Below are positions 19,294 to 21,807 of a DNA stretch of 31,169 nt, one piece after another (within the stretch, counting starts at the first letter, position 1; each line of letters opens with the position of its first letter). Made by a program: the position numbers and the translations under genes. The stretch comes from a virus. The stretch lies in the IMG/VR virus record IMGVR_UViG_3300022200_003650, positions 1 through 31,169 of that record; one strand, given 5' to 3'. The notes beneath the pieces were generated by a model. The model searched no databases. It was not told the origin of the DNA and saw only the letters and a list, made by a program, of their open reading frames with translations.

Positions 19294-19476
19294 CTATGAT
19301 GCTTCGTTATTATTTTCCGTGTATATTCGGAAAAGTTCATCTTCTGCGGGAACCATTACTGCTGCCTGTCCATCCTCATTTATTATACCAATATGCTCTC
19401 CATTTTCAACTCTGGAGATCATTTCGTCCCAACGTTCTTGGAATTCTTCCACCGTGTAAATTTCCATTGTTGTCAT
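19294..19476 (-). CDS. Phd/YefM-like antitoxin-type protein (orphan)
   Basis: 60 residues from the ATG at 19476. The frame runs on into tRNA-Pro from a TTG, which is clearly not coding. MEIYTVEEFQERWDEMISRV then ENGEHIGIINEDGQAAVMVP matches the N-terminal DNA-binding domain of Phd/YefM antitoxins (a start strand, helix with E-F, then V-E-N-G-E-x-I, then a strand ending in V-P). The acidic tail is short and there is no adjacent toxin gene. It could neutralise a host toxin or act as a repressor. It lies between tRNA-Ile and tRNA-Pro and shares their transcript. Confidence 0.75.
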   Translation of the reverse strand: MTTMEIYTVEEFQERWDEMISRVENGEHIGIINEDGQAAVMVPAEDELFRIYTENNNEAS

Positions 19477-19486
19477 ATTTAGACAA

Positions 19487-19560
19487 TCGGGGTGACAGGA
19501 TTCGAACCTGCGACCCTCTGCTCCCAAAGCAGATGCGCTACCAAACTGCGCTACACCCCG
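19487..19560 (-). tRNA. tRNA-Pro (UGG)
   Basis: 74 nt. Acceptor CGGGGTG/CACCCCG with C1-G72 as usual for bacterial tRNA-Pro, D arm GCGCAGTTTGGTAGCGC, anticodon loop TTTGGGA (UGG), T arm GCAGG-TTCGAAT-CCTGT, discriminator A. First tRNA after the promoter at 19577-19605. Confidence 0.96.
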
Positions 19561-19576
19561 TCTTGATTACCTACTA

Positions 19577-19605
19577 ATTATACTACTTCTTGGAGTGCTT
19601 GTCAA
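19577..19605 (-). promoter_or_regulatory. perfect consensus sigma-70 promoter inside the 3' end of a microprotein gene
   Basis: TTGACA (19605-19600), 17-bp spacer, TATAAT (19582-19577), exact consensus. The -35 and spacer encode the last residues FDKHSKK of the upstream gene. Transcription should start about 10 nt before tRNA-Pro and cover tRNA-Pro, the Phd-like gene, tRNA-Ile and tRNA-CAU. Confidence 0.95.
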
Positions 19606-19735
19606 ATGGAGCCCAGTGCTGCCAGTTGTATTTGTGGACTGCCCACATACCTAGGATTGGAACTCCAATAAGACCGAAACTCATAAGACCCAACAGGACT
19701 GGGTTGTTTAATACTGATGCTGCAAAGTGTCCCAT
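19583..19735 (-). CDS. 50-residue single-helix membrane protein
   Basis: MGHFAASVLNNPVLLGLMSF then GLIGVPILGMWAVHKYNWQH, ending WAPFDKHSKK. One hydrophobic helix at about residues 13-33 is followed by a Trp/His-rich basic tail. The ribosome site GGAGGGG is strong, and the start overlaps the previous stop as TAATG. Too short for standard ORF cut-offs. The 3' end doubles as a promoter. Function unknown; the size and shape resemble small subunits of thylakoid complexes, which is only a resemblance. Confidence 0.78.
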   Translation of the reverse strand: MGHFAASVLNNPVLLGLMSFGLIGVPILGMWAVHKYNWQHWAPFDKHSKK

Positions 19736-19956
19736 TAATATCCCCTCCACGTCTTAAACTCAAAATAAAAATACTGGTCAAGAATACTATTATCTAGTGG
19801 TGCATTTTCAGTTCTATGTGCCCACTCAATACAGAAGTCTATGATGCGATGGTCTTTTAAGGAACCGTGTCCCCACATTCTTACAAACGCTGATGCTGCA
19901 AAATGAAACCGCTGTTTAATGTGCGGTTCCGTTTCCCTTATAATCTTCGGAATCAT
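19735..19956 (-). CDS. hypothetical protein, 73 residues
   Basis: Starts MIPKIIRETEPHIKQRFHFA at the ATG at 19956, after AGGGGGATACT. An upstream in-frame TTG is ignored. Rich in His, Arg and aromatic residues (FVRMWGHGSLKDHRIIDFCI, ending FKTWRGY), soluble. Its first 41 nt overlap the end of the 43-residue gene 19916-20047 in another frame. Function unknown. Confidence 0.75.
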   Translation of the reverse strand: MIPKIIRETEPHIKQRFHFAASAFVRMWGHGSLKDHRIIDFCIEWAHRTENAPLDNSILDQYFYFEFKTWRGY

Positions 19957-20047
19957 AGTATCCCCCTTTCTTTGAACCAAAGTAAAGTGTAGCAACCACG
20001 AATGGTATTGCTAATACTATAAGAAATCTTCCCAGTAAATGTGACAT
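19916..20047 (-). CDS. 43-residue single-helix membrane protein
   Basis: MSHLLGRFLIVLAIPFVVAT then LYFGSKKGGYYDSEDYKGNG, ending TAH. An N-terminal membrane helix (about 4-24) precedes a soluble GGYYDSEDYKGNGTAH tail. GGAGGAATGTA gives a strong ribosome site, and the start overlaps the previous stop as TAATG. It overlaps 19735-19956 by 41 nt. No function assigned. Confidence 0.8.
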   Translation of the reverse strand: MSHLLGRFLIVLAIPFVVATLYFGSKKGGYYDSEDYKGNGTAH

Positions 20048-20172
20048 TACATTCCTCCGCCGTTTCTAAATCCTATGATATATCCCATAATGAGTCCACA
20101 CATAAATGCTACAAACATGTAGAGCATGTGTGAAAGAAAATCAATGAATATGAACCATTCCGTCGTCGTCAT
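20047..20172 (-). CDS. 41-residue membrane microprotein
   Basis: MTTTEWFIFIDFLSHMLYMF then VAFMCGLIMGYIIGF, ending RNGGGM. Almost entirely hydrophobic and Met-rich, one or two helices. The start ATG at 20172 lies inside the Asp-repeat end of 20141-20455, 32 nt of overlap in another frame. Internal ATG codons (20130, 20121) are alternative starts giving 27 or 24 residues. TAATG couples it to 19916-20047. Function unknown. Confidence 0.6.
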   Translation of the reverse strand: MTTTEWFIFIDFLSHMLYMFVAFMCGLIMGYIIGFRNGGGM

Positions 20173-20455
20173 CATCGTCGTCTTCGTAGGTTGATGGTTC
20201 TTCAAAAAGTTCCATCATTTTTTGTTCGGTAACTCTCTGTTGGAGTTTTTCTAAATCTTCTTCCGTGAATCTTACCACTAGTAAAGGATCTCCTGCTTTA
20301 ACGTCGTTAAGTTCTGGATGTTTTACTTTTGGACTTTTTGAATATCCATAGTGAGCATTCATGATCATCCATCCTTGCACGATCATAGTTAAAGATATTG
20401 CCACAAGAACAAACCAGGGTACTAAAAATATTAGTTCAGAGTGATTTTGAGCCAT
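20141..20455 (-). CDS. membrane protein with acidic C-terminal tail
   Basis: 104 residues. One membrane helix at about 8-30 (LIFLVPWFVLVAISLTMIV), then a soluble part (GDPLLVVRFTEEDLEKLQQR) and a run of seven Asp near the end (YEDDDDDDDGMVHIH). No family recognised. It overlaps the genes on both sides (25 and 32 nt). The Asp run is encoded by an alternating GAC/GAT tract whose shifted frame supplies the start of the next gene. Confidence 0.8.
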   Translation of the reverse strand: MAQNHSELIFLVPWFVLVAISLTMIVQGWMIMNAHYGYSKSPKVKHPELNDVKAGDPLLVVRFTEEDLEKLQQRVTEQKMMELFEEPSTYEDDDDDDDGMVHIH

Positions 20456-20637
20456 GGAAGTAAAGGTGGTATAACTCCTATAAGTCTTAAAAGTCCCTCA
20501 GCAAATAAAGCAAGAACCACCCAACCGACGCACATACTAATGATAGAAGCATTACGGTTGTGTTGTCGTATTGCTGCATCAATCATCTCCTGAACTTCAG
20601 AACGACTTACATACTCGTCATCAAAGGGTTCCATCAT
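20431..20637 (-). CDS. small membrane protein, 68 residues
   Basis: Acidic N-terminus (MMEPFDDEYVSRSEVQEMID), a short amphipathic helix, then hydrophobic segments at about 32-55 (SIISMCVGWVVLALFAEGLL) and a second short one to the end. Starts at ATG 20637, overlapping the previous stop as ATGA. Unknown function. Confidence 0.8.
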   Translation of the reverse strand: MMEPFDDEYVSRSEVQEMIDAAIRQHNRNASIISMCVGWVVLALFAEGLLRLIGVIPPLLPWLKITLN

Positions 20638-20783
20638 TTCTCATCTCCAAGAAACTTTGCAAGAGGATCTCTTCTAGTCTTAACTATTTCACATGCTCTG
20701 TAGTAGAACATATTATTAGTATTACCAGATTCTTCAAAAGTTGCTTTGATCTTCACCCAATTCTCATAAGTATGCTGATCCAT
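20634..20783 (-). CDS. 49-residue hypothetical protein
   Basis: MDQHTYENWVKIKATFEESG then NTNNMFYYRACEIVKTRRDP, ending LAKFLGDEK. Soluble, helical, charged. It is the first gene after the promoter at 20807-20837 and leads the microprotein chain 20634 to 19583. The stop overlaps the next ATG. The leader carries no clear ribosome site. No function assigned. Confidence 0.8.
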   Translation of the reverse strand: MDQHTYENWVKIKATFEESGNTNNMFYYRACEIVKTRRDPLAKFLGDEK

Positions 20784-20806: not shown

Positions 20807-20837
20807 TATATACTAATCAGCATACTTTGAGTGTCAA
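20807..20837 (-). promoter_or_regulatory. probable sigma-70 promoter of the microprotein operon
   Basis: TTGACA (20837-20832) with TATATA (20812-20807) at a 19-bp spacer; TATAGT (20810-20805) is an alternative -10. Spacing is longer than ideal. The stretch 20784-20908 holds nothing else that I can see. Confidence 0.55.
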
Positions 20838-20908
20838 CAATATGTCAGGATTTTGTAACACTAGGATACAGAAAAACGAATAAATTATTAAATCGGTATC
20901 GTATATAA

Positions 20909-20993
20909 CGGAAAGGGTGGGATTCGAACCCACGGAAGCTTTCACTTCGCTAGTTTTCAAGACTAGAGCCTTCAACCACTCGACCACCTTTCC
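20909..20993 (-). tRNA. tRNA-Ser (UGA)
   Basis: 85 nt with the long variable arm of class II tRNAs. Acceptor GGAAAGG/CCTTTCC, anticodon arm CTAGT-CTTGAAA-ACTAG (UGA, reads UCA), T arm GTGGG-TTCGAAT-CCCAC, discriminator G as required by SerRS. Confidence 0.96.
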
Positions 20994-21002
20994 AGGTTTT
21001 AA

Positions 21003-21263: not shown

Positions 21264-21707
21264 TTATTCTAAAAATGATCTCAACATCCAGTGGAATTTT
21301 CCGTGGGTTTCCATAATAGTTTGAACTAAATTAGAAGCTGCAAATTGTCTTTGTTTATCTGCTTCTTCTGAAATATCAGTAAAAATTTCTACAATTTTTT
21401 TATTGTCATCTCTTAACTGTCTTACCATTTCCATAGCGTCAATATCTTGAGCACTATTTGATGCTTGTTCAATCTGAGTTACTTCAGTAATTCTTGTAAG
21501 AGTGCTTACTGGTTTCATACCCAAGTATCTCATATGTTCGGTAAGAGTATCAATCTCCTCAAACATTTCTTTATACTGTTCACCAAAAACAGTATGCAGT
21601 TGGTGAAAATCAGGACCAACTACATCCCAATGATAAATCCAAGTTTTTTGAAATAAAACAAAGAGTGATGATTGACCATCACTTAAGAGTTTGAATAATT
21701 TTTCCAT
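21264..21707 (-). CDS. Dps-like ferritin (DNA-protection type)
   Basis: 147 residues from the ATG at 21707; the frame continues upstream into tRNA-Val, which is not coding. YHWDVVGPDFHQLH and EMFEEIDTLTEHMRYLG are Dps blocks. His26, His38, Asp53 and Glu57 have the same spacing (12, 15, 4) as the E. coli Dps ferroxidase ligands His51, His63, Asp78 and Glu82. Dps oxidises Fe(II) with peroxide, stores iron in a dodecamer and can bind DNA. It lacks a long basic N-terminal tail. A late promoter lies 18-25 nt upstream, so it is probably made late and could even be carried in particles. Confidence 0.85.
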   Translation of the reverse strand: MEKLFKLLSDGQSSLFVLFQKTWIYHWDVVGPDFHQLHTVFGEQYKEMFEEIDTLTEHMRYLGMKPVSTLTRITEVTQIEQASNSAQDIDAMEMVRQLRDDNKKIVEIFTDISEEADKQRQFAASNLVQTIMETHGKFHWMLRSFLE

Positions 21708-21724
21708 TATACTCTTTTTACTTT

Positions 21725-21732
21725 TATTTATC
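21725..21732 (-). promoter_or_regulatory. late promoter of the Dps-like gene
   Basis: GATAAATA on the minus strand matches NATAAATA exactly. It is placed between tRNA-Val and the Dps-like gene, 18 nt before the ATG. Confidence 0.75.
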
Positions 21733-21735
21733 AAA

Positions 21736-21807
21736 TGGGCGATGACGGATTCGAACCGCCGACCTACTCCGTGTAAAGGAGGCACTCTACCGCTGAGTTA
21801 ATCGCCC
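21736..21807 (-). tRNA. tRNA-Val (UAC)
   Basis: 72 nt. Acceptor GGGCGAT/ATCGCCC, D arm CTCAGCGGTAGAG, anticodon loop TTTACAC (UAC, reads GUA), T arm GGCGG-TTCGAAT-CCGTC, discriminator A. Confidence 0.95.

Follow-up and report, generated by a model that had tools for sequence, protein, structure and literature searches.

A chain of seven overlapping small genes in a T4-like cyanophage encodes a putative NdhP and is a probable backbone of an electron-transport gene cassette

The minus strand of a T4-like cyanophage (Kyanoviridae) is tiled from position 20783 to 19583 by seven ORFs of 49, 68, 104, 41, 43, 73 and 50 aa. Judged by their sequences, these are genuine small genes that form one putative operon. 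The reading that we consider probable as a whole is that this chain represents the backbone of a cassette for electron-transport and pentose-phosphate genes, that the 43-residue protein (P43) is a phage-encoded NdhP which would support the NDH-1L complex of the host, and that the other members would be accessory.

Results and Discussion

Arrangement of the genes

The window, i.e. the complete stretch of DNA that was analysed, is a linear IMG/VR virus record of 31,169 bp, and the annotated genomes nearest to it are DSL-LC03, Bellamy and S-SM2. The chain is located in a minus-strand tRNA cluster downstream of nrdAB. Its upstream border, here and in many relatives, is a tRNA-Ser (UGA; 20908..20994, minus strand) and its downstream border is a tRNA-Pro (UGG; 19487..19560, minus strand). 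Two sigma-70-like promoter sequences, both consensus matches only, were found on the same strand: one of 10/12 positions (TTGACA-16-TAGTAT; 20810..20837) that ends 27 nt upstream of the ATG of P49, and a perfect one of 12/12 (TTGACA-17-TATAAT; 19577..19605) at the P50 end, upstream of tRNA-Pro. The T4-type late promoter motif ATAAATA was not found within the chain, and the window is not enriched in it. Other minus-strand ORFs of the window comprise a Phd/YefM-like antitoxin ORF in the tRNA cluster (phrog_375; 19294-19479), next to which no partner toxin was identified, an ORF near the cluster with the appearance of the Dps/ferritin family (21264-21785), and two paralogous signal-peptide proteins of ~120 aa (874-1254 and 1464-1823) that look like small outer-membrane barrels.

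Five of the seven products are predicted to have a single transmembrane (TM) segment, namely P68 (20431..20637; phrog_1096, the GenBank 'gp7' family, T4-GC 246), P104 (20141..20455; the long form, phrog_275/1953), P41 (20047..20172), P43 (19916..20047; phrog_2173) and P50 (19583..19735; phrog_1184, the syn9 gp123 family, T4-GC 922). P49 (20634..20783), a predicted two-helix protein, and the all-helical P73 (19735..19956; phrog_593) are predicted to be soluble. The sizes and overlaps listed in the original prediction were thus all recovered on the minus strand, whereas its title had counted six genes, and four membrane proteins had been claimed. The assumption that such genes are missed by length cut-offs holds in part: P41 and P49 have no PHROG match (for P41 none below E 0.05) and several isolate genomes lack an annotated ndhP, but the other five of the seven proteins match PHROG families that already exist.

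P49 and P68 overlap by 4 nt (ATGA; 1 nt with the second Met as start), P68 and P104 by 25 nt, P104 and P41 by 32 nt, P41 and P43 by 1 nt (TAATG), P43 and P73 by 41 nt with P73 in the +1 frame relative to ndhP, and P73 and P50 again by 1 nt (TAATG). The acidic DDDDDDD tail of P104 is encoded by a GAC/GAT run, and the ATG of P41 (MTTTEW) is situated within the same run in another frame, exactly as had been predicted. Strong Shine-Dalgarno-like sequences precede P43 (GGAGG), P73 (GGGGG) and P50 (GGAGGGG).

A putative phage-encoded NdhP

On the evidence of profile comparisons P43 is NdhP, a subunit of the photosynthetic (thylakoid) NDH-1. The family profile matched the solved NdhP chains 6khi_P (E=1.7e-10) and 6hum_P (E=5.3e-9) and, with lower significance, plant subunits (NDF6/PnsB4), spanning the TM helix and the tail. 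It also matched 131 of 151 picocyanobacterial genomes, nearly always once per genome and with values down to 4e-20, and the query of the profile is ~55-64% identical to host NdhP. P43 has an N-terminal single TM helix (KD19 2.17 at residues 4-22), as has the 42-44 aa NdhP of cyanobacterial NDH-1L, with which it also shares the C-terminal tail (FYDTDQYHGNGSAH vs YYDSEDYKGNGTAH). The phage tail YYxSxxYxGNGTAH conforms to the pattern of the cytoplasmic NdhP tail, YYDxDxYxGNGTAH, and is kept in phages and hosts. NdhP of NDH-1L is encoded at a host locus, whereas the gene of P43, a putative subunit of the complex, belongs to a phage and overlaps those of P41 and P73 in the same operon. PsaX (PF08078) was considered for P43 and abandoned in favour of NdhP: the score of 16.4 bits is below the gathering score of 25, and 3 of 23 members had E<0.1. 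The C-terminus of the P-SSM2 NdhP (GDGCAHDVKR) is identical to that of several uncultured picocyanobacterial host copies and unlike that of Synechococcus phages, which suggests that ndhP was acquired from hosts more than once.

NdhP is essential for a stable NDH-1L (PMC4131877) and contacts NdhD and NdhF (PMC6992706), and transcriptome data from infected Prochlorococcus are in agreement with cyclic photophosphorylation (PMC5082946). We assume that the phage NdhP would stabilise the host NDH-1L and sustain cyclic electron flow. Through this support of NDH-1L it would serve the ATP supply during infection and, in phages that have them, it would do so alongside PTOX, plastocyanin and the NADPH-making gnd and zwf. 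NdhP is, however, one single-TM subunit, and extra copies need not raise the activity of NDH-1L.

The phage protein might alternatively be a competitor that takes the place of the host subunit, so that NDH-1L is rewired or disabled, for example in favour of respiration or with its CO2-uptake forms blocked. The phage copies have variants of their own, such as residues (KGEN) inserted before the tail in marine phages, and ndhP co-occurs with PTOX (an alternative plastoquinol oxidase), both of which would be compatible with such a role; yet positions conserved among the host sequences are also kept in phages and purifying selection acts on the family, which favours a retained subunit function, and we regard competition as unlikely.

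The chain as probable backbone of a cassette

In many relatives gnd, PTOX, petE and/or ferredoxin are found between P104/P41 and ndhP. Since these auxiliary metabolic genes (AMGs) occupy a slot directly upstream of ndhP, the chain can be understood as the backbone of the cassette. The slot corresponds to the P41/ndhP junction of the window (20047..20048) and is empty in this phage; neither petE, PTOX, gnd, zwf nor ferredoxin was detected between tRNA-Ser and tRNA-Pro, although they are present in many relatives. The chain has two genomic homes, the tRNA cluster as in the window and, in marine phages, the region that precedes gp17, and insertion of AMGs upstream of ndhP occurs in both. ORFs of the chain flank petE, PTOX, gnd and zwf in syn9, Syn30, S-SM2, S-RIM2, S-RIM8 and Syn1. 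In the petE/PTOX/zwf/gnd mobile cassette of cyanomyoviruses (PMC3037559) homologues of P68, P104, ndhP, P73 and P50 are interspersed in varying subsets (syn9, Syn30, S-SM2, S-RIM2 and S-RIM8), whereas the window has the microproteins alone, in a tRNA cluster near nrdAB and not just before gp17. Backbone small ORFs of the cassette are present in the chain as P68 (T4-GC 246), P50 (T4-GC 922) and P73 (T4-GC 1021 family). Millard et al. 2009 reportedly described this mobile cassette as a hyperplastic region.

The chain is also found without some of its members. DSL-LC03, the nearest freshwater isolate found, has kept P49, P68, P104, P73 and P50, and ndhP was not detected in its chain, which shows that the other genes do not need ndhP as a neighbour. 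P68 occurs without the rest of the chain in S-SM1 and P-SSM4. In DSL-LC02 P68 and the long P104 are located between psbA-psbD, which they directly follow, and the downstream gene speD, another context of photosynthesis genes.

Among the remaining membrane proteins P68 is the best conserved; homologues occur in 267 phage records as well as 10 of 151 host genomes, and the conserved core is HNRNASIIS...G...E.LLRLIG. A PDB profile search with P68 gave no match, and the ORFs next to the host copies (peroxiredoxin-like, FtsH-like) gave no functional lead. An HLIP-like nature, considered on account of an H-x-R-x-A motif, was rejected: none of the members had a matching Pfam hit, and the Glu is absent from its expected place. 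The family is labelled 'gp7' in S-SM1, S-SM2, P-SSM4, P-SSM2 and S-SSM7. T4 gp7 is a large structural protein of the baseplate with about 1000 aa, and a baseplate wedge function was dismissed for the 68-aa single-TM protein, for which the name is a misnomer.

The long P104 has an HPEL...LLVVRF motif and weakly resembles cyanobacterial DUF2973 (PF11189), with which the long form has in common a TM helix followed by the motif HPEL..(D/E)LLxVRF. Membership was not accepted: the window protein scored 14.9 bits (gathering score 22.2), the best member had E=8.4e-4, the hhalign probability was 39%, and no member shown reached the Pfam cut-off. Cytochrome b559 alpha was likewise discarded for P104, the PDB matches being at E 0.2 or worse. 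A short paralogue of P104 (~60 aa) joins or replaces the long form in loci L010, L031, L106 and others; the window has the long form only.

P49 has homologues in picocyanobacterial genomes, often in multiple copies (as many as seven matches in one genome). Its AlphaFold model is confident (pLDDT 90.8), as is that of P73 (pLDDT 84.6), and neither model had a fold match in the PDB; the PDB profile search with P49 also gave none. P50 has a conserved P..G......H pattern. No relatives of P41, P50 and P73 were found outside phages: the three had no match in 151 host genomes and none in PDB profile searches, and their tie to thylakoid complexes is therefore positional. Guided by the genomic context, we suppose that P68, P104, P41 and P50 are probably accessory or assembly factors at the same thylakoid complexes and that the soluble P49 and P73 may be cytosolic partners. 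The original suggestion that the membrane proteins act at thylakoids is thus strengthened for P43 through its identification as a thylakoid NDH-1 subunit; for the others it is supported by context, since relatives have AMGs of photosynthetic electron transport and of the pentose-phosphate pathway inserted into this chain.

Dense small ORFs beside tRNAs are typical of the host-takeover regions of phages. The microproteins might accordingly be general, non-photosynthetic effectors of the host envelope (lysis regulators, superinfection exclusion, depolarisation) with ndhP as a passenger, an idea with which the location by the tRNAs, the occurrence of P68 apart from AMGs in S-SM1 and P-SSM4 and the missing PDB matches of P41, P50 and P68 agree. 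Such a function appears quite unlikely to us, however, in view of the constant order with ndhP in 80 ndhP-anchored loci, in which P73 was present in 74, P50 in 70, P68 in 66 and P104 in 63, and of the repeated insertion of electron-transport AMGs into the chain. In the same 80 contigs gnd was found in 12, petE in 13 and psbA/psbD in 5.

Evidence for genuine genes

The stretch has seven ATG-started ORFs of at least 40 aa that cover 100% of it, whereas 2000 dinucleotide-preserving shuffles gave on average 1.3 ORFs and 17% coverage, with maxima of 6 and 61%. Profiles built from the fetched loci recovered each family, with unchanged order, in 45 to 157 loci: P49 in 115, P68 in 157, P104 in 139, P41 in 45, P43 in 95, P73 in 122 and P50 in 152, counts that include the window and, as the loci were drawn from best-identity lists, are not independent samples of nature. 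The 25-nt overlap of P68 and P104 is preserved in 82 loci, the 41-nt overlap of P43 and P73 in 67, and TAATG was found at all 26 of 26 adjacent P41/P43 pairs.

The dN/dS ratio, determined for each frame across relatives as the original prediction had proposed, was below 1 for all seven genes outside the overlaps, with medians of 0.09 (P49), 0.17 (P68), 0.40 (P104), 0.17 (P41), 0.26 (P43), 0.60 (P73, the weakest constraint) and 0.29 (P50), and the third codon position was the most variable there in all seven. Within the 25- and 41-nt overlaps it is the upstream gene whose third codon positions vary. It follows that the upstream frame (P68 and P43, respectively) is the constrained one in these overlaps and that the N-terminus of the downstream gene is carried along. 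The original prediction had named selection on one frame only as counter-evidence; here both frames are under selection, but unequally within the overlaps. That several ORFs are spurious and open merely through their overlap with real genes is very improbable: the upstream frame alone governs variation inside the overlaps, and in phages with a zwf start annotated in the +1 frame of ndhP that frame stays open for ~35 aa, but most of each ORF lies outside the overlaps with dN/dS <1 and third-position-biased change, P43, P73 and P50 have their strong Shine-Dalgarno-like sequences, and none of the 2000 shuffles produced such a chain.

Distribution and annotation of phage ndhP

By tblastn ~394 phage records encode ndhP, a number that includes redundant records. 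Equally redundant are the 331 Synechococcus-labelled and 46 Cyanophage-labelled records with ndhP, as compared to 377 and 61 that match the syn9 terminase. Among the matches listed, P-TIM68 alone names NdhP (the depositors called it 'putative NADH dehydrogenase subunit P'), and the others are 'hypothetical' or lie beneath over-extended zwf starts. As in the window, ndhP of P-TIM68 would be an auxiliary metabolic gene; there it directly follows nrdB, whereas in the window it is part of the seven-gene overlapping chain bordered by tRNA-Ser and tRNA-Pro. Viral ndhI, ndhD and ndhP, with ndhP likewise as an auxiliary metabolic gene, have been suggested from metagenomes (cited in PMC3877843 and PMC10452541). 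With this suggestion and the annotation in P-TIM68, phage ndhP as such is not new. In a search outside Sharon 2011, Millard 2009 and the P-TIM68 paper, we found no account of how widespread phage ndhP is or how it is hidden in isolate genomes, and none of the microprotein backbone or of the correction of T4-GC 1021 given below.

In syn9, S-SM2 and Syn30 the ndhP ORF spans the gnd/zwf junction beneath an over-extended zwf start, which is in the +1 frame. Sullivan et al. 2010 (PMC3037559) described 'remnants of zwf' as cluster T4-GC 1021 with lengths of 276, 303 and 306. The 303- and 306-nt members (Syn1, S-ShM2) are P73-family genes (E about 1e-22), and their similarity to zwf is confined to residues ~3-42, which are the +1-frame translation of ndhP. 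Because the similarity to zwf derives from this translation alone, these members are not zwf remnants but 73-aa-family genes that overlap ndhP.

Implications

A more far-reaching view of the chain is that of an unrecognised complex-I takeover operon, in which NdhP and four phage membrane microproteins would remodel NDH-1L and petE, PTOX, gnd and zwf would be plug-ins of a single slot. We consider this doubtful; if true, a takeover operon of photosynthetic complex I would be common to cyanomyoviruses. The reading that we prefer, a cassette backbone with a putative NdhP that would support NDH-1L, implies that conserved microproteins form the backbone of the best-known AMG cassette and also travel without the AMGs, and that the published 'degraded zwf remnants' may be reinterpreted as 73-aa-family genes overlapping ndhP. 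Most cyanomyovirus records appear to have ndhP, largely unlabelled or under a mis-started zwf. This would make NDH-1 a directly testable target, and phage ndhP bears on the question of whether photosynthetic electron flow in infected cyanobacteria is linear or cyclic.
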